DNA from: Pseudoxanthomonas sp. CF385
Lineage (GTDB): Bacteria; Pseudomonadota; Gammaproteobacteria; Xanthomonadales; Xanthomonadaceae
Reading direction: 5' to 3'
NCBI RefSeq assembly: GCF_900104255.1
Contig: NZ_FNKZ01000001.1
Coordinates: 434,001-498,000, forward strand
DNA length: 64,000 nt
Shown here: positions 1-8,725 of the stretch, one piece after another
Layout: each line of letters opens with the position of its first letter
Position numbering within the stretch: the stretch's first letter is position 1
Notes under the pieces: model-generated
What the model saw: the letters and a program-made list of their open reading frames with translations, nothing else
Told to the model about the DNA's origin: nothing
Database searches by the model: none
Program-made: the position numbers and the translations under genes

Positions 1-747
1 TCTTCCGCGCTCGCCGTGCTGGTCTTGCTGCTCGGTGCGTGCGCGCATTCCGGCCCGCGCAATCCGCTCGCGACGTGGGTACCGTCGAAGAACTTCGACG
101 AACGACGCCCCGTCGTCATCGTGCTGCACTACACCGAGCAGGATTCCGTCGAACAGTCGCTGGACACGCTGCGCAGCCGCAACAGCGCTAGGCGGGTCAG
201 TTCGCACTACCTCGTCGGCAAGGACGGGCACACCTACCAGCTGGTCAGCGACGCGAAGCGGGCGTGGCATGCGGGCGCCGGACGCTGGGGCGCGATCACC
301 GACGTCAACAACGCTTCGATCGGCATCGAGATCGACAACGACGGCAAGAGCCCGTATCCGGACGCGCAGATCGAGAGCCTGATCGTCCTGCTGCGCGATC
401 TGACGACGCGGCTCCGCATTCCACCGACGCAGATCATCGGTCACTCGGACGTGGCGCCGACACGCAAGATCGACCCCGGCCCCCTGTTTCCTTGGAAGCG
501 CCTGCACGAAGCGGGTTTCGGTCTGTGGCCCGCGGCGGATGCGGGCGAACCGCCCCCCGGTTTCGATCCGTGGCTGGCCCTGCAGGCGATCGGCTACGCC
601 GTCGACAACCGGGGCGACACCGTGCGCGCGTTCCATCACCGCTTCCGCGGCATCGACGGAAACGAACTGGATGCCGAAGACCTGCGCATCCTGCATGCGC
701 TCACGCGTTCGGCGCCGCCGGAAAGTCCTCCGCCGACAACGCCTTGA
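1..747 (+). CDS. AmiD-like N-acetylmuramoyl-L-alanine amidase lipoprotein, 5' end outside window
   Basis: Zinc amidase of the Amidase_2 (AmpD/AmiD) family, which cleaves the amide bond between N-acetylmuramic acid and the L-Ala of the stem peptide. The frame is open from base 1 and reads through a hydrophobic stretch into a lipobox (LLGAC, Cys codon at 40-42), so this is probably an outer-membrane lipoprotein like E. coli AmiD and the true start lies upstream of the window. Family motifs are present: VIVLHYT early (first zinc His), RAWHAG in the middle, and GHSDVAPTRKIDPG with the second His and the Asp near residue 150. Stop TGA at 745-747. It lies upstream of the TonB receptor and D-Ala peptidase genes on the same strand, a sensible source of their substrates, though 362 bp separate them. 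Function is confident; cellular role is inferred. Confidence 0.9.
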   Translation, partial: SSALAVLVLLLGACAHSGPRNPLATWVPSKNFDERRPVVIVLHYTEQDSVEQSLDTLRSRNSARRVSSHYLVGKDGHTYQLVSDAKRAWHAGAGRWGAITDVNNASIGIEIDNDGKSPYPDAQIESLIVLLRDLTTRLRIPPTQIIGHSDVAPTRKIDPGPLFPWKRLHEAGFGLWPAADAGEPPPGFDPWLALQAIGYAVDNRGDTVRAFHHRFRGIDGNELDAEDLRILHALTRSAPPESPPPTTP

Positions 748-1109
748 ATGCGAATATTCAAGTCGGTTTCTTCTGATGAAAGGAATAATTTATTGACTCG
801 CCGCACATGGCGTGCTACATCGAAGTACAGGGGTTTTTCCCCGCCGGACGCGATGTTCGTTCCGGCGGCGCAGTAAACCGGCGGGGTGCCGGCGCAACAA
901 CCAGATCGTCAACGATGTTCCGCGTTGCGTGCCCGGGATGGGGCGCGTCGGTTGGTACGTATGGGGAATCCTGAGGCTCCTGTGGCGCGCATGTCGATGC
1001 GGCGCGTCCGGGCTTGAAGCCCGCAGTGGGGATCCCGTCGAGCGACCCGCGCCGCGCAGCACATCGTCCTGGCTGCATCCGCAGCGTTCTTTCATCCAGG
1101 AGATTCCGC
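748..1109. other. Intergenic leader of the TonB receptor gene, with hairpins
   Basis: No gene is supported here. The first part is AT-richer than the rest of the window and holds a promoter-like pair at 793-821. If that is used, the receptor mRNA carries a leader of about 280 nt. Within the leader I see a hairpin with 8-bp arms (841-848 with 861-868, loop 12 nt) and a short GGGG/CCCC inverted repeat around 831-843. I could not match the leader to a known riboswitch class. Open frames on both strands in this stretch look like GC-driven shadows. Confidence 0.5.
793..821 (+). promoter_or_regulatory. Candidate sigma-70 promoter for the TonB receptor operon
   Basis: A -35 box TTGACT (793-798) and a -10 box TACATC (816-821) are separated by 17 nt. 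The pair sits in the only AT-rich patch between the amidase gene and the receptor gene. It is a sequence match only. Confidence 0.4.
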
Positions 1110-4022
1110 ATGCCCGCTCGATCCCTCCCGCTCAAGCCAAGCCATCTCGCCGCCGCCATCGTGCTGGGTCTGGCCGTCCCGGGCGTCAGCCTCGCGCAGG
1201 AGTCGGCGCCCGCCAGCGGGAACAGTGCGCGCACGCTCGACACCGTGACCGTCACCGGTTCGCGCATCAAGCGCACCGAAGTGGAGGCGCAGTTGCCGGT
1301 GACGGTGCTGCAGAAGGAGCGCATCGACGAACTCGGCATCTCGTCGGCCGAGCAACTGCTCATGTTCCTCAACATCGCGGGCAACGGCTCCGACAATCTC
1401 GCGAGCAACGGCGGCATCGTCAGCGAGGAGCAGCGCGGCAACAACGGCGTCTCCGGCGCCAACCTGCGTGGCCAGGGCGCCGATGCGACGCTGGTGCTGC
1501 TGAACGGGCGCCGCGTCGCCACCCATGGCCTCAAGGGCCGGGCCGTGGACCTGAACTCGATTCCCTTCGCCGCGCTCGACCGCGTCGAAGTGCTGCGCGA
1601 TGGCGCGTCCGCGGTGTACGGCACCGATGCCATCGGCGGCGTGATCAACTTCATCACCAAGAGCGACTACACCGGGCTTGAAGCGTCGACCTTCGTGGAT
1701 GTCACCGAGGAAGGCGGCGGCAACATCTTCCGCGCCAATCTGCTGGGTGGCTGGGGAGACCTGGACAACGATCGCTGGAACGTCTTCGGCACGGTCACCG
1801 TCAAGAAGAACGAGATCCTGCGCGGCACGGATCGCGACTACTCCAATACGTTCCAGGCCGACCGCGGCCTGTCGCCGGACACGCGCGGCACGCCGTTCGC
1901 GACGGTGTTCAGCCTGGGCAGCACCGGGGTGGGCGCGACCAGCCTCCTCCGCAACGGCCAGATCGATCCCGCCGATCCGCCGGGGCCGAATCCGTTGCGC
2001 CAGACGGCGATCAACATCCTCGACCTGCCGGGCGCGTCGGGATGCGCGAGTGGCGGCGACATGATGGGGCCGTACGACCATCGCCTGTGGAGCAGCACGG
2101 CCTCCCGTTTCGCATGCGCCTGGGACTATCCGGCCGCCGCGATCATCCAGCAGCCGCAGAAGAGCGTGGACTTCATCGGTCGCGCCACCTTCAAGATCAG
2201 CGACAACCACCGGGCCTACGTGGAGCTGGTGGGCTCGCAGGTGGATGTGGAGAAGACGTTCGAGCCGAACCAGATCTCGTCGAGCACATCGACGGCCACC
2301 ACCGCCCTGGGCCCGAGCACGTGGTATCCGCTCAATGCGACGACCCAGGCCACGTACGACATGATCTACAACGCACTGGCGACCTACTTCGGCGCGGGCA
2401 ACCTCAACTACGGCGCCCCGATCGCGTACCGCTGGCGCTGCATCGCGTGCGGCCCGCGCCAGATCGAGACGACGACCAAGTCCTACCGCTTCCTCACGTC
2501 GGTCGAAGGTTCGCTGGGCAGCAAGTGGGACTACAACGTGGGCCTCTCGCGCGCCTCCAGCAAGTCCGAATCCACGCTGGGCAGCGGTTTCCACTACACC
2601 GACGCGTTGAGGACCGTCCTCGGCAGCGGCCTGCTGAACCCCTTCCTCATGCCGGGCCAGGAGCAGAGCGCCGCGGCGATGTCCGCGCTCGATGCGGCGT
2701 CCGCCGCCGGCGTCATGCTGTACGGCGGCGAATCGATCCTCACCACCCTGGACGCGACGTTCTCGGGCAGCCTCGGCTTTTCGCTGCCGGGCGGCGAAGT
2801 GCTGGCGGCCACGGGCATCGACCTGCGTCGCGAGGAGTTCAAGTTCGACGGCGACTCGCGCGTCGACAGGCGCCCGGTGTTCAACGCCCCATTCGACGAC
2901 TCGAACATCCTCGACAACGTCAGCCGCGACATCAAGGCGGTCTATGCGGAAGTCTACCTGCCGCTGCTCGACAACCTCGACATCACGGTGGCGGGCCGGT
3001 ACGACGAATACGACGGCTTCGGCAGCACCACCAACCCGAAGGTGTCGTTCAAGTTCGAACCCTTCGAAGGCGCCGCGCTGCGCGGCGCGTACAGCACCGG
3101 CTTCAAGGTGCCGTCGTTCAACCAGTTGTTCAATGGCGTGACCGAGACGCTGTACGTCGGACAGGACCTGGCCGATCCCGCCACCTGCCCCAGCGGCATC
3201 GCCAATCCGGCGGTCGCCGGCTGCGAATCGATCCGCCCGGTCGAGCTGTTCGGCGGCAAGGAAGACCTGCAGCCCGAGGAGTCCACGCAGAAGAGCTTCG
3301 GCGTCGTGCTGGCGCCGGTCGACTGGCTCAACGTGAGCGTGGACTGGTGGGAAATCGAGCGCGAGAACACGATCCGTTCGGCGCCGCGCGACATCCTGAT
3401 CCAGTACTACGACGTCTTCGCGGCCAACTGGATCCGCGACGCCAGCGGCGAGGTCGTGGCCATCGATCGGCGTTACGTCAATTCGGGCGGCAGCCTGATG
3501 CGCGGCATCGAGATCGACGGCAACGTCATGGGCGATCTCGCAGGCGGGACCTTCCGTCTGAACCTCAACGGCAGCTACATCAACACGTTCAAGACGAAGG
3601 CGCTGGAGACTCTGCCCTATACCGACAACCTGGTCGGCGACTATGTCCGTTACTACAACCTGCCGATCAAGTGGAAGCACACGCTGACCTTCACGTGGCA
3701 GAAGGGCGACTGGTCGCACAACCTGAGCCAGATCTACCGCGACGGCTATAACGACGAGCTGCCCGTGAGCGTGCGCAATAACACGTACATCCCGGAGAAC
3801 TGGAACCCGCGCGTGTCCAACTACACCACCTACAACTACAGCCTGGTGTACTCCGGCATCGAGCGGATGAAGCTGACCTTCGGCGTCAAGAACGTGTTCG
3901 ACGAGGATCCGCCGTTCACCGCCCACCAGAACGATTTCGCCGCCGGCGCCGCGTGGGAGCCCCGCATCGCCGATCCGCGCGGTCGCGCGTACACCCTGCT
4001 GATGGAATACAAGTTCCGCTGA
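1110..4022 (+). CDS. TonB-dependent outer-membrane receptor
   Basis: A 970-residue outer-membrane active transporter powered by TonB-ExbBD. The start is the ATG at 1110, preceded by a CAGGAGA ribosome site at 1097-1103; it gives a clean signal peptide ending near VSLAQ. The mature N-terminus has the xanthomonad-style TVTVTGSRIKR segment that leads into the plug domain (ISSAEQLLMFLN, LRGQGADATLVLLNGRR, DAIGGVINF). The rest is the large beta-barrel, including GAYSTGFKVPSFNQLF and a C-terminal NVFDEDPPF region. The last residues are EYKFR, with one residue after the usual terminal Phe. The substrate cannot be read from sequence. The two genes downstream degrade D-Ala peptides, so a peptide or muropeptide ligand is the natural guess; siderophore uptake is less likely because no siderophore genes are nearby. 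Confidence 0.93.
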   Translation: MPARSLPLKPSHLAAAIVLGLAVPGVSLAQESAPASGNSARTLDTVTVTGSRIKRTEVEAQLPVTVLQKERIDELGISSAEQLLMFLNIAGNGSDNLASNGGIVSEEQRGNNGVSGANLRGQGADATLVLLNGRRVATHGLKGRAVDLNSIPFAALDRVEVLRDGASAVYGTDAIGGVINFITKSDYTGLEASTFVDVTEEGGGNIFRANLLGGWGDLDNDRWNVFGTVTVKKNEILRGTDRDYSNTFQADRGLSPDTRGTPFATVFSLGSTGVGATSLLRNGQIDPADPPGPNPLRQTAINILDLPGASGCASGGDMMGPYDHRLWSSTASRFACAWDYPAAAIIQQPQKSVDFIGRATFKISDNHRAYVELVGSQVDVEKTFEPNQISSSTSTATTALGPSTWYPLNATTQATYDMIYNALATYFGAGNLNYGAPIAYRWRCIACGPRQIETTTKSYRFLTSVEGSLGSKWDYNVGLSRASSKSESTLGSGFHYTDALRTVLGSGLLNPFLMPGQEQSAAAMSALDAASAAGVMLYGGESILTTLDATFSGSLGFSLPGGEVLAATGIDLRREEFKFDGDSRVDRRPVFNAPFDDSNILDNVSRDIKAVYAEVYLPLLDNLDITVAGRYDEYDGFGSTTNPKVSFKFEPFEGAALRGAYSTGFKVPSFNQLFNGVTETLYVGQDLADPATCPSGIANPAVAGCESIRPVELFGGKEDLQPEESTQKSFGVVLAPVDWLNVSVDWWEIERENTIRSAPRDILIQYYDVFAANWIRDASGEVVAIDRRYVNSGGSLMRGIEIDGNVMGDLAGGTFRLNLNGSYINTFKTKALETLPYTDNLVGDYVRYYNLPIKWKHTLTFTWQKGDWSHNLSQIYRDGYNDELPVSVRNNTYIPENWNPRVSNYTTYNYSLVYSGIERMKLTFGVKNVFDEDPPFTAHQNDFAAGAAWEPRIADPRGRAYTLLMEYKFR

Positions 4023-4118
4023 GCGGGGAAGGGCGTCATGGCACGGGCGGCGGCACGCCGCCCGTGCGCATCGAAGGGTCGCCGGTGCCCCGGTGGCCAG
4101 AAGCAGGAAGGAACACGC

Positions 4119-6365
4119 GTGCAGTCGTCCGAATCGAACCTCCTGGCGCACGCCCGCACGCGCCTGCGCGTCGTGCTGGCGTGCGCGCTGGGTGCCATCG
4201 CGGTAACCGCCGCCGCCGAGCCGCCGGCGTTGCGCAACCAGCGGGACGCCGCGTTCGAAGCCACCTTCGAACGCTACCGCTTGCCTGGCTTGGCCGTGGG
4301 CATCGTCCGCGACGGGCAGGTGGTCTACCAGCGTACCGCCGGTGAACGCGTGGCCGGCGGCGGCGAACAGATCGATGCGGACACGCTGTTCAAGATCGCC
4401 TCCAACAGCAAGGCGATGACGGCGGGGGTGCTGGCGCGGCTCGTGGATGCCGGCAAGCTCAAGTGGGACGATCCCGTCACCCGGCATCTGCCGCAGTTCC
4501 GCATGCACGACCCCTGGGTCACGCAGCAGATGCAGGTGCGCGACCTGCTGATCCACAACAGCGGCCTCGGACTCGGCGCCGGCGACCTCATGCTGTGGCC
4601 GGAGCCCAACCGCTTCACCCGTGCCGACATCATCGCCGGCCTGCAGTACCTGAAGCCGACGCACAGCTTCCGTGCCAACTACGCCTACGACAACCTGCTG
4701 TACGTGGTGGCCGGCGAAGTCGCCGCAGCGGCCGGAGGCGCGCCGTACGACACGTTGGTGAAGCGCGAACTGTTCCAGCCCTTGGGCATGCGACGCTGCC
4801 AGGTCGGTGAATGGAACCGCGCGCGGGTCGGCAACGTGGCGCAACCGCACATGCGCACGGACGAGGGAAACCGTGCCATCCGCGAAGATGGCGACGTGGT
4901 GCCCGACATCACGTCGATGGCGGCCGGCGGCATCCGCTGCAGCCTCAACGACATGCTGACCTGGGTCGGCATGTGGCTGTCGCCGGACGCGACGCCGGCC
5001 TGGCTGTCGCCGGCCCAGCGCAAGGCGGTCTGGACTGCGCACATGCCGATGCCGGTCAGCGCGCGGATGCGCGCGTGGGACAACAGCCACGTCTCTGCCT
5101 ACGGCTACGGCTGGCGGCTGTCGGACGTGGACGGTGCCTGGAAGGTCGCGCACACGGGGACCCTGGCCGGCATGTACTCCTCGGTGATCCTCCTGCCCGA
5201 CCAGCGCACCGGCATCGTCATCCTCATCAACGGCGAAGGTGAAGCGGCCCGCACCGTGCTGGGCGAAGTGCTGACCAAGCAGATCACCGTGCCGGGCCAG
5301 GCGCACTCCGTCGCGCATTACGCCGCGCTGCTGGACGAGGAGCGCGCCGGTGAGCGCGCGGCCAATCCCGAGTCCGATACACGCCATCGCACGCCGGCGC
5401 CCGCGAACGCGCTGGCATCGTGGACGGGGCGCTACCGCGATGCCTGGTTCGGCGAGGTGACCGTGTGCGCGCAGGGCGATCGCGTGCGTTTCGCGTCCGC
5501 GCGTTCGCCGATGCTGACCGGCACCGTGATGCAGGTGGATACGCGCTGGCTGGTCGACTGGGACGATGACAGTGTCGATGCCGAGCCCTGGCTGCACTTC
5601 GCGACGGATGGGGGTTCGAAGACGCTCAAGCTTTCGCATGTCGATCCCGACGCGGATTTCAGCTACGACTACCAGGATCTCGCCTTCGTCCGCGAAGCCG
5701 CATGCGACGTGGTGTCCGCGCCGAAAGTCGAAGTGTCGCCTGCGAAGGAGGCGGCCGCCGTCGGCCTGGTGGATGTCGCCGCGCTGGCGCCGAACCTGCA
5801 GCGCGAGATGCGTTATGCCGGCACCGCCAATTTCACCGGTGCACGCGTGCCGGGCTACGGGGCGAACACCTGCCTGTTGCTGGCGCCGGTCGCGCAGGCG
5901 CTGGCGAACGTGCAGGCGGACGTGCAGCGCGAGGGCCTGTCCCTGAAGCTGTTCGACTGCTATCGCCCGGTGCGTTCGGTGAAGCATTTCGTGGCCTGGG
6001 CGCGCGACACCCGCGACCAGCGGACCAAGGCGGCGTATTACCCCAACCTCGACAAGGCGACGCTGCTCGATGGCTACATCGCCGAGACGTCCGGCCACAG
6101 CCGCGGCGCGACCCTGGACCTGACCCTCACGCGCTGCGAGGGCGGGGCGTGCGTCGACCTGGACATGGGCACACCGTTCGACTTCTTCGATCCGCGCGCA
6201 AACACCGCGCATGCCGATCTGTCGCCTGAGCAGAAGGCCAACCGCGCACGCCTGCTGGACGCGATGGCGCGCCACGGGTTCCATAATTACCCGATGGAAT
6301 GGTGGCACTTCACCTTCCGCCCCGAACCTTCTCCCCACACCGCGTACGACGTCCCGATCCGATGA
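4119..6365 (+). CDS. Secreted fusion: serine beta-lactamase-fold hydrolase plus VanX-type D-Ala-D-Ala dipeptidase
   Basis: A 748-residue exported two-enzyme protein. The preferred start is GTG 4119, with AGGAAGGAA at 4105-4113; an open frame back to 4038 exists but has no ribosome site. After a signal peptide (to about residue 33) comes a class C beta-lactamase/D-aminopeptidase fold with SNSK (nucleophile Ser95, Lys98), Y-D-N (190-192) and HTG (345-347). A spacer at about 430-530 resembles DUF3471. The C-terminal 180 residues are a peptidase M15D (VanX/DdpX) domain with CYRP (Arg616), SGHSRGATLD (zinc ligands His660 and Asp667) and EWWH (Glu727, zinc His730). The serine domain could trim D-Ala or D-amino peptides, and the zinc domain would split D-Ala-D-Ala. 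The stop overlaps the start of the D-amino-acid dehydrogenase gene by 4 nt, which argues for a shared D-alanine pathway. Both active sites look intact. Confidence 0.9.
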   Translation: MQSSESNLLAHARTRLRVVLACALGAIAVTAAAEPPALRNQRDAAFEATFERYRLPGLAVGIVRDGQVVYQRTAGERVAGGGEQIDADTLFKIASNSKAMTAGVLARLVDAGKLKWDDPVTRHLPQFRMHDPWVTQQMQVRDLLIHNSGLGLGAGDLMLWPEPNRFTRADIIAGLQYLKPTHSFRANYAYDNLLYVVAGEVAAAAGGAPYDTLVKRELFQPLGMRRCQVGEWNRARVGNVAQPHMRTDEGNRAIREDGDVVPDITSMAAGGIRCSLNDMLTWVGMWLSPDATPAWLSPAQRKAVWTAHMPMPVSARMRAWDNSHVSAYGYGWRLSDVDGAWKVAHTGTLAGMYSSVILLPDQRTGIVILINGEGEAARTVLGEVLTKQITVPGQAHSVAHYAALLDEERAGERAANPESDTRHRTPAPANALASWTGRYRDAWFGEVTVCAQGDRVRFASARSPMLTGTVMQVDTRWLVDWDDDSVDAEPWLHFATDGGSKTLKLSHVDPDADFSYDYQDLAFVREAACDVVSAPKVEVSPAKEAAAVGLVDVAALAPNLQREMRYAGTANFTGARVPGYGANTCLLLAPVAQALANVQADVQREGLSLKLFDCYRPVRSVKHFVAWARDTRDQRTKAAYYPNLDKATLLDGYIAETSGHSRGATLDLTLTRCEGGACVDLDMGTPFDFFDPRANTAHADLSPEQKANRARLLDAMARHGFHNYPMEWWHFTFRPEPSPHTAYDVPIR

Positions 6366-7627
6366 CTTCCTCCCCCTCCTTCCGGCCGCCGCGGACCACC
6401 GACGTCGCGGTGATCGGCAGCGGCATCGTCGGCCTGTCGACAGCCCATCACCTGCTCGACCGCGGGCTGTCCTGCATGCTGATCGATCCGAAGGGACCGG
6501 CCGGCGAGACCTCGTTCGGCAATGCGGGCTCGATCTCGGTCGGCAACGTGATGCCGCAGTCGACGCCGGGCATCGTCGTCAAGGCGCTGCGCATGCTGGC
6601 CAATCCGCTGGCGCCGCTGAAGCTCGACTGGGGCGTCAGCCCGTCCTACGCGCGCTGGTTGCTGCAGTTCCTCGTCCAGGGCCGGTTGCAGCACGTGTTG
6701 CCGATCATCGATGCGCTGAGCGCGATCAACCGCGCTTCGCGCGACGCCTGGCTCGACCTCGGCGAGCGCATCCAGGCGCAGGACCTGATCGCGCACACCG
6801 GTTACCTGCACGTGTACTCCGCGCTGGAGAGCTTCGCGAAAGGCGAATGGGAGCGCGGCCTGATGCGCGACCGCGGCGTCGCGTTCGACGTGCTCGATGC
6901 CGCGCAGCTGCGCGAGCTGGAGCCGGGGATCGGCGAGGGTTTCCAGCGCGCGGTGTTCCAGCGCGAGTCGCTGGCGATGCGCGATCCCGGCGATTTCTGC
7001 CGGCGGCTGTTCAACCATCTCAGTGCGCGCGGCGCGGTGCCGCTGACGGCCAGCGTGTCGGCGATCGCGCGTCGCGACGGCGGCTACCGGGTCGACACCG
7101 ACCACGGTCCGGTGCATGCCGGCCGCGTGGTGGTGGCGGCCGGCGCATGGAGCAATGCGCTGCTGCAGCCGTTCGGCCTGAAGATTCCGGTGATCCCGGC
7201 GCGCGGCTATCACCTGATGTATCCGCAGGCCGACGCGGTCGTTCGCCGCCCCACGCTGTGGGCCGAGCGCTACATGGTGGTGTCGCCGATGCAGGCGGGC
7301 ATCCGCATGACCAGCATCAAGGAGCTGACCGCGCTCGGCCGCGATCCGCACTACCACCTGATCCGCCGGCTCGATCCCGAAGCACGCAAGCTGTTCCCCG
7401 GCATCACCGGCCAGGCGGTGTCGGAATGGGCCGGCAACCGGCCCTGCACGCCGGATTCGCTGCCGATCATCGACCGCGTGCCGGGCGAAGAGATCTTCGT
7501 CGCGACCGGCCACGGCCACCTGGGGTTGACCCAGGGACCAGTGACCGGCCGCCTGCTCGACCAGCTGATGGCAGGGGCGGCGACGGACATCCCGCTGGCG
7601 CCGTACGCGCTGGCGCGCTTCGGCTGA
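6362..7627 (+). CDS. DadA-like FAD-dependent D-amino-acid dehydrogenase
   Basis: A 421-residue flavoprotein of the DAO/DadA family, which oxidises D-amino acids to 2-oxo acids and ammonia and passes electrons to the respiratory chain at the inner membrane. The start ATG at 6362 overlaps the previous stop (ATGA), so the two genes are translationally coupled. The N-terminus has the FAD-binding VIGSGIVGLSTAHHLLDRG, followed by the DadA-typical FGNAGSISVGNVMPQSTPG. The C-terminal half has GYHLMYPQAD and a final GHGHLGLTQGPVTGRLL flavin-contact segment. Position directly after a D-Ala-D-Ala dipeptidase supports D-alanine as substrate. A D-hydroxyproline dehydrogenase of the same family is the main alternative. 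Confidence 0.88.
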   Translation: MTSSPSFRPPRTTDVAVIGSGIVGLSTAHHLLDRGLSCMLIDPKGPAGETSFGNAGSISVGNVMPQSTPGIVVKALRMLANPLAPLKLDWGVSPSYARWLLQFLVQGRLQHVLPIIDALSAINRASRDAWLDLGERIQAQDLIAHTGYLHVYSALESFAKGEWERGLMRDRGVAFDVLDAAQLRELEPGIGEGFQRAVFQRESLAMRDPGDFCRRLFNHLSARGAVPLTASVSAIARRDGGYRVDTDHGPVHAGRVVVAAGAWSNALLQPFGLKIPVIPARGYHLMYPQADAVVRRPTLWAERYMVVSPMQAGIRMTSIKELTALGRDPHYHLIRRLDPEARKLFPGITGQAVSEWAGNRPCTPDSLPIIDRVPGEEIFVATGHGHLGLTQGPVTGRLLDQLMAGAATDIPLAPYALARFG

Positions 7628-7879: not shown

Positions 7880-8725
7880 TCAGGACGTGCGGAATGCGCT
7901 CGGCGAACGGCCGTAGGCTTGCCGGAACGCGGAGGTGAAATGGCTGTGGCTGGAGAAGCCGAGGTCGTGCGCCAGCGTGGAGACATCCGTCGCGGTCGCG
8001 AGCAGGTCCAGCGCGCGGGCCAGCCGCAGTTGCAGCTGGTAGCGGTACAGCGGCATCCCTTCGACCTGGCGGAAGACCTGAGTGAGATAGACCGGCGAGC
8101 CGCCGACCTCGTGCGCGATCTCGGCCAACGTCCAGCGCCGTCCGGGATCGCTGGCGAGCAGCAGCTTGACCCGGTCCACCAGCCGTTGCCGCGCGCGCGT
8201 CGCACCCGGTACATGCGCGGTGCGCGCGCCGAGGCTGCGCGAGGCCAGTGTCAGCGCGAGGCCTTCGGCTTCGAGCGGTTCGCACGTCCCGCGCCGCAAG
8301 GCATGGCCGAGCAGCGCGACCAGCGCCTGGGTGCGGGCATCGATGCGCAGGGCCTGGTGGCGGAAGGCGACCGTCGTGCTCTTGCGCCGCAATGGCGTCG
8401 GCGCGAGTTCGTCGAGCAGGACGTCGGCGAGTTGCAGGACCAGGCTGGCATCGCCGCCGTCGACCGGATGGCTGACCTGATAGCCCTCGCCGGCATTGAA
8501 CAGCAGCACATGGTTGGCATCGGCCACGGCCTGGGTCTGGCCGACATGGCGCAGGTAGGTGCCCCGATACGGGAACACCAGATGCGTCGCGCCGACGCAT
8601 TCCTCTTCGCTGCGGTGCCGGCATTCGCCGCGGCAGCGTACGTCGCGCACCGACACGGTGGCCGTGTCGAGCAAGCGCGCGACATCGAACTGCGAAGCGG
8701 ACGGCGGGCGCGCCGGGGAGGCCAT
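7880..8725 (-). CDS. AraC-family transcriptional regulator
   Basis: 281 residues. The N-terminal two-thirds is an effector-binding cupin-like domain (HLVFPYRGTYLRHVG, VLLFNAGEGYQVSHP). The last 100 residues form the double helix-turn-helix DNA-binding domain: LAEIAHEVGGSPVYLTQVFRQVEG for the first motif, and LAHDLGFSSHSHFTSAFRQAYGRSPSAFR for the second, close to the AraC signature. The start is the ATG at 8725. The target genes are unknown; trmL, immediately upstream on the same strand, is a housekeeping gene and not an obvious target. Confidence 0.9.
   Translation of the reverse strand: MASPARPPSASQFDVARLLDTATVSVRDVRCRGECRHRSEEECVGATHLVFPYRGTYLRHVGQTQAVADANHVLLFNAGEGYQVSHPVDGGDASLVLQLADVLLDELAPTPLRRKSTTVAFRHQALRIDARTQALVALLGHALRRGTCEPLEAEGLALTLASRSLGARTAHVPGATRARQRLVDRVKLLLASDPGRRWTLAEIAHEVGGSPVYLTQVFRQVEGMPLYRYQLQLRLARALDLLATATDVSTLAHDLGFSSHSHFTSAFRQAYGRSPSAFRTS

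Follow-up and report, generated by a model that had tools for sequence, protein, structure and literature searches.

The first 7,627 nucleotides of a 64,000-nucleotide stretch of Pseudoxanthomonas sp. CF385 DNA (the window; contig NZ_FNKZ01000001.1, here C1, positions 434,001 to 498,000, in a 3.88-Mb genome) carry an amidase lipoprotein, a TonB receptor, an exported hydrolase-dipeptidase fusion and a DadA-like oxidoreductase. That these four genes stand in one plus-strand row, with a 4-nt overlap between the last two (ATGA, 6362-6365), was confirmed as the initial annotation had described it. The locus itself was larger than the interval 1-7627 given there: it spanned approximately 423559-441627 on C1, with ~10.4 kb lying to the left of the window (Table 1). 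Our analysis indicated with good confidence that the window contains the rightmost part of an ~18-kb, 11-gene locus, organized as one control unit, that serves to take up and break down peptidoglycan stem peptides. Such a set probably lets these environmental bacteria import and consume bacterial cell-wall peptides.

Table 1. Genes and promoter features of the locus, in window and contig C1 coordinates.
Feature	Window	C1	Strand	Remarks
SDF symporter		423559-424833	-	
YkuD protein		424830-425612	-	
RpiR/MurR-type regulator		425612-426466	-	SIS domain
YkfB-like L-Ala-D/L-Glu epimerase		426522-427619	-	enolase superfamily
NlpC/P60 peptidase		427616-429085	-	with SH3_6 domain
Transglutaminase-like protein		~429349-430770	+	exported
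TonB receptor 1 (TBDR1)		430823-433831	+	outside window
Amidase_2 lipoprotein (AmiD/AmpDh2-like)	1-747	433971-434747	+	last gene of transglutaminase/TBDR1/amidase unit
Operator-like palindrome GAATAATTTATTGAC	783-797		+	overlaps -35 box
Promoter-like TTGACT, 17-nt spacer, TACATC	793-821		+	read from sequence
TonB receptor 2 (TBDR2)	1110-4022	435110-438022	+	plug 6.1e-16, barrel 1.4e-35
Fusion: serine hydrolase (penicillin-binding protein/class C beta-lactamase fold) + DUF3471 + M15	4119-6365	438119-440365	+	exported
M15 (VanX/DdpX-like) domain of fusion	5760-6347		+	
DadA-like oxidoreductase (DAO), flavin adenine dinucleotide-dependent	6362-7627	440362-441627	+	7.5e-62

The amidase matched Pfam Amidase_2 with an E-value of 8.4e-37 (126.9 vs. 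26 bits) and showed the lipobox LLLGAC by eye; its ATG likely lies 29 nt upstream of the window start. The fusion protein combined PF00144 (8.1e-62), DUF3471 (1.6e-9) and M15 (7.6e-38) domains. Its start was placed at the GTG at 4119, which has AGGAAGGA ahead of it and is followed by a hydrophobic N-terminus; the ATG at 4038 is an alternative start. The 362 nt between the amidase and TBDR2 contain an operator- and promoter-like site, so the two genes are probably carried on different transcripts.

The locus was compared in two samples. One was drawn from the family and comprised 247 genomes; the other came from a scan of named genomes, in which 314 relatives were found and the best 80 were kept, with at most 10 kb of flank on each side. 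Gene presence in these 80 loci was scored by tblastn, and contig ends and the 10-kb limit depress the counts of outer genes. The nearest named loci were those of Pseudoxanthomonas sp. Root630 and P. mexicana. Among the matches listed for the 247 genomes, a close hydrolase relative was present in 136 and M15 in 134; the two lay within 3 kb of each other in 91 of the 106 genomes with both (89 on the same strand). A DadA-like gene (E ≤ 1e-60) occurred in 11/247 genomes, in every case no more than 3 kb from the hydrolase gene and nine times on the same strand. The proximity of both genes to the hydrolase exceeds chance. A TBDR2 relative (E ≤ 1e-100) was found in 40 genomes and was hydrolase-adjacent in 13 of them. 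The conserved linkage proposed earlier as a check was thus borne out for the hydrolase with M15 and for the larger locus, and proved weaker for the DadA-like gene and TBDR2.

In the best 80 of the 314 named loci, NlpC/P60 was present in 72, TBDR1 in 67, the epimerase, M15 and the transglutaminase-like gene in 65 each, RpiR in 56, YkuD in 47, the amidase in 21, the symporter in 19, the DadA-like gene in 16 and TBDR2 in 14; the commoner receptor was therefore the one outside the window. The epimerase adjoined NlpC/P60 in 64/65 loci, and RpiR came next after the epimerase in 40 of the 41 with enough flank. Epimerase, NlpC/P60 and hydrolase co-occurred in 65 of the 80 loci, 62 of which carried a TonB receptor and 55 an M15 domain, and the amidase, TBDR2, hydrolase/M15 and DadA-like gene were all present in nine. 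These results indicated that the core of the locus is a stem-peptide kit plus a receptor, and that the row of four genes seen in the window represents one of its versions. With a DadA-like gene in so few family genomes, D-Ala oxidation is best read as an occasional add-on.

These counts also bear on the view that the locus serves D-Ala salvage only. The M15-bearing and DadA-like genes do overlap in the window; however, the epimerase and NlpC/P60, whose families are those of enzymes for the L-Ala-D-Glu half of the peptide, were far commoner in the 80 loci (65 and 72) than the DadA-like gene (16), and we consider salvage of D-Ala alone very unlikely. The import and use of D-Ala-rich wall peptides, as first proposed, was right in direction and too narrow in scope, since the epimerase and NlpC/P60 are also present. 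These two enzymes handle L-Ala-D-Glu, and in some relatives a diaminopimelate decarboxylase or an M19 dipeptidase is added, so that the stem peptide as a whole looks to be the target. By clustering, the decarboxylase was inserted in 6/21 relatives' loci and the M19 gene lay inside 2/21; the two decarboxylases tested scored 475.9 and 459.6 bits, above the curated cut-off of 297.9 bits. The permease slot varied among relatives, being occupied by an SDF, APC or DUF819 protein. One DUF819 membrane protein near an NlpC/P60 gene (L045:3-1040; same cluster in L039 and L041-L043) is a candidate dipeptide permease.

A palindrome, GAATAAWTTATTGAC, overlapping the -35 box was found to precede both receptor-bearing units. 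In the divergent region, AATAA-N-TTATT runs into a TTGAC -35 box, and this core was present in 48 of the 49 regions examined, the miss being locus L121. The second copy, GAATAATTTATTGAC, ahead of TBDR2, was the one match in the window at up to two mismatches (shuffled sequences gave a mean of 0.01, with one match in 1/100). At the same tolerance, the whole genome held two exact copies, both at the locus, where base composition predicted 0.00017; a single 2-mismatch copy, G000:C1:662906-662920, was the sole other operator-like site. The reversed pattern gave no match in this genome at up to two mismatches and no exact copy in the 247 family genomes. The operator itself occurred there in 119 exact copies in 114 genomes, and 111 of these copies were no more than 20 kb from the hydrolase gene; 110 of the 111 preceded it on its own strand. 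Of the remaining eight, six were on a contig other than that of the hydrolase, one was in a genome for which no hydrolase relative was listed and one was distant on the same contig. The operator alone is a near-specific genome marker of the locus. In another genome with no close hydrolase among the matches listed (G035:C1:1615351-1621056), an exact operator preceded a same-strand M15 gene by ~5 kb and may mark a variant locus.

The sequence TACA started 23 or 24 nt past the start of TTGAC in 69/74 exact sites; a generic promoter scan gave no call for TTGACT-17 nt-TACATC at window 793-821. Among the 80 named loci, 65 had an exact operator, five a single-mismatch copy and ten none that good. Locus L117 (Xanthomonas bonasiae) kept the epimerase, NlpC/P60 and hydrolase and had neither RpiR nor an operator copy within three mismatches; it was the only locus with the epimerase and enough flank that lacked RpiR. 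This one case only suggests that regulator and site belong together; many loci with an operator copy and without RpiR were cut off before the expected position of RpiR. A record titled Bacillus subtilis SK7B5 (L125) carried a Lysobacteraceae-type locus with the operator, most likely through contamination or mislabelling.

The hydrolase domain of the fusion kept SxxK, YDN and HTG in 81/81 sequences. HTG is the motif of R61-type DD-peptidases, and KTG is that of class C beta-lactamases. The fold was clear. AmpC enzymes scored nearly level with D-peptidases, and our preferred assignment, a D,D-peptidase acting on cross-links or pentapeptides, has about an even chance of being correct. A class C beta-lactamase assignment was rejected, as the domain reached 86.2 vs. 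415 bits against NF033085 and HTG replaced KTG throughout. The PF00144 fold and the AmpD-family amidase could together be taken for a beta-lactam response or resistance locus; the same motif and cut-off results speak against this, the epimerase, permease and receptors do not fit, and we regard it as the least probable of the explanations considered. The M15 domain matched VanX among solved structures (1r44, 6.5e-40), and of its zinc and catalytic residues R, S, H and D were kept in 65/65 sequences and E and H in 64/65 (one gap).

In the 80 loci, hydrolase and M15 formed one protein in eight, were separate on the same strand in 55 and on opposite strands in two, and M15 was absent from the flank in 15. 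In the near relatives L034 and L035, where the genes are separate, M15 starts with a lipoprotein-like signal of its own, and after this comes a stretch resembling the fusion linker, which suggests that the fusion arose by recent loss of a stop and a signal. Hydrolase-M15-hydrolase proteins of 1040 and 1072 residues were observed in L043:7786-10908 and L044:8868-12086 (domains of one checked), beside lysA-like and M19 dipeptidase genes.

Catalytic residues were likewise intact in the amidase, epimerase and NlpC/P60 peptidase. The amidase kept H38, H85 and H143, which we take to be zinc ligands, in 22/22 sequences; its nearest solved relative was AmpDh2, which scored above AmpD. For the epimerase, the best solved match was the B. 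subtilis L-Ala-D/L-Glu epimerase (1jpm, 3.7e-101), and R24, K160, K162, K267, D321 and D323 were conserved in 63/63 aligned sequences, including both catalytic Lys residues; R24, D321 and D323 presumably have functional roles as well. A review describes YkfB as narrow in specificity, with L-Ala-D/L-Glu as its likely natural substrate (PMC5808125). The NlpC/P60 peptidase kept Y316, W318, D326, C327 and S328 in 66/66. In B. cereus YkfC, the gamma-D-Glu contacts are Tyr226, Trp228, Asp237 and Ser239 (PMC2954226), and the Tyr, Trp, Asp and Ser of this site were retained in all 66 sequences.

We infer the following route. Wall fragments that have been released, probably muropeptides or peptides still cross-linked, would enter through TBDR1 and TBDR2. 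In the periplasm, judging from families and catalytic residues, the amidase would cut the stem peptide off muramic acid, the serine hydrolase would open or trim D,D-bonds, the M15 domain would split D-Ala-D-Ala, and NlpC/P60 would cut gamma-D-Glu-diaminopimelate to yield L-Ala-D-Glu, with the YkuD and transglutaminase-like proteins probably assisting. The permease, an SDF symporter here and an APC or DUF819 protein in some relatives, would carry the products inward. In the cytoplasm, the YkfB-like epimerase would produce L-Ala-L-Glu, and the DadA-like enzyme would oxidize D-Ala to pyruvate. The RpiR/MurR-type regulator is predicted to bind the palindrome overlapping the -35 box and so to control the transglutaminase/TBDR1/amidase and TBDR2/hydrolase-dipeptidase/DadA units. 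At the sequence level, the gene set with its domains, the intact catalytic residues, the conserved linkage and the shared operator-like sites all point to cell-wall peptide salvage with outer-membrane receptors of its own, the central idea of the initial annotation. A bolder reading sees here the peptide counterpart of a polysaccharide utilisation locus: a peptidoglycan utilisation locus that depends on TonB, has two receptors to itself, a periplasmic stem-peptide kit and one private RpiR-type operator, and by which Lysobacterales would feed on the walls of other bacteria; we hold this tentatively, as a serious possibility falling just short of probable.

Several observations weigh against the stem-peptide uptake and catabolism reading as a whole. 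The M15 domain missed the VanX/D-Ala-D-Ala dipeptidase cut-offs (NF033115, 166.1 vs. 320 bits; PRK10178, 104.9 vs. 176 bits), the amidase fell below the AmpD equivalog cut-off (NF008758, 108.6 vs. 143 bits), and the DadA-like enzyme fell below that for D-amino acid dehydrogenase (PRK00711, 207.4 vs. 383 bits). Asn occupied, in 66/66 NlpC/P60 sequences, the position of the YkfC residue Asp256, which reads the free N-terminus of L-Ala (PMC2954226). None of the genes of this locus acts on diaminopimelate itself. TBDR2 was not hydrolase-adjacent in 27 of the 40 genomes with TBDR2, and among the 80 named loci the DadA-like gene was not found in 64 and M15 was missing from the available flank of 15. 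No exact operator was present in 23/136 hydrolase-bearing genomes, and RpiR was accompanied by a best site with three mismatches in L121 and by a 2-mismatch site in L077. Among solved structures, TBDR1 had no match, and TBDR2 had plug-level matches only, to siderophore and B12 receptors, with no matching ligand. The receptor results would also fit import of an unrelated substrate, a siderophore or another peptide, by receptors that merely share the operator and neighbourhood. We judged this decidedly unlikely, as the same near-private operator precedes both receptor units and a receptor was present in 62/65 core loci.

Another explanation is that the locus serves to recycle wall fragments which the cell itself has shed, its receptors recapturing leakage. 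The same enzymes would serve, and a RpiR/MurR-type regulator with a SIS domain fits amino-sugar phosphate sensing, as the MurR ligand implies. However, AmpG, Mpl and S66 LD-carboxypeptidase matches above cut-offs are encoded elsewhere in the genome, so the locus is additional to canonical recycling, which does not depend on it, and it is often partly lacking in the family (136/247 genomes with a hydrolase relative among the matches listed). Own recycling is rather unlikely on this evidence. A second DadA-like match in the genome scored 246 bits. The presence of receptors and of exported enzymes speaks for feeding on wall material that has been released; the cell may also recapture fragments of its own. 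Lysobacterales include wall-lysing predators. Xanthomonas oryzae is reported without orthologues of glutamate racemase and D-Glu aminotransferase (PMC5808125), so the epimerase may be a needed D-Glu exit in this family.

Downstream of the DadA-like gene lie an AraC-type regulator and TrmL (profile matches) and an M16-like protease (by eye), which look unrelated to the pathway. The AraC-type regulator (window 7880-8725) was present in 2/80 named loci by tblastn and was therefore regarded as a local neighbour. At the outer end, a short transposase-like open reading frame (by eye; L133:11140-11532) stands beside the symporter, and past it are genes resembling nitrate and molybdenum-cofactor functions, also by eye. 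In a close relative, the TBDR2 gene was in two frames (G117:C1:3938863-3941735, in L033), representing a pseudogene or a sequencing error.

Should the locus take up wall peptides as proposed, these would be added to iron chelates, vitamin B12 and sugars in the range of substrates served by dedicated TonB receptors. Predation on bacteria and the turnover of walls would then have a nutritional route in a large family of environmental bacteria. Roles would also be suggested for many genes that carry no label beyond beta-lactamase, dipeptidase or TonB receptor. The two receptors, the single operator, the named genes and the many relatives that can be cultured form a clear test set.

Among known systems, Bacillus ykfBC proved a nearer parallel than the E. 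coli ddp operon named in the initial annotation, sharing a YkfB-type epimerase that adjoins an NlpC/P60 peptidase. Linked ykfBC genes have been described from Bacillus, Listeria, Bacteroides and others. As in our model, the peptidase is proposed to be exported and the epimerase cytoplasmic in B. cereus, with extracellular breakdown followed by import of L-Ala-gamma-D-Glu (PMC2954226). The present locus adds two TonB receptors, the amidase, the hydrolase-dipeptidase fusion, the DadA-like enzyme and RpiR with its operator. It has a symporter in place of the dipeptide ABC transporter of B. subtilis, with no ABC transporter among its genes, and differs further in lacking an S66 LD-carboxypeptidase, in its SH3_6-type domain and in the Asn at the Asp256 position. 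No TonB-linked version of ykfBC was found in the open-licence literature searched, and we filed the locus as a TonB-linked form of known ykfBC-type murein-peptide catabolism.

The ddp operon, which pairs DdpX with an ABC transporter, shares the linkage of a D-Ala-D-Ala dipeptidase to transport genes, whereas our locus has TonB receptors, no peptide ABC transporter, and further enzymes that would deal with the remainder of the stem peptide. Canonical AmpG/Mpl recycling also acts on muropeptides and stem peptides; its genes lie elsewhere in the genome, and the locus would degrade the peptide rather than re-use it whole. TonB-linked polysaccharide utilisation loci similarly unite a receptor, exported hydrolases, a permease and a regulator in one regulated locus, with glycosidases where the present locus has peptidases and D-amino acid enzymes.

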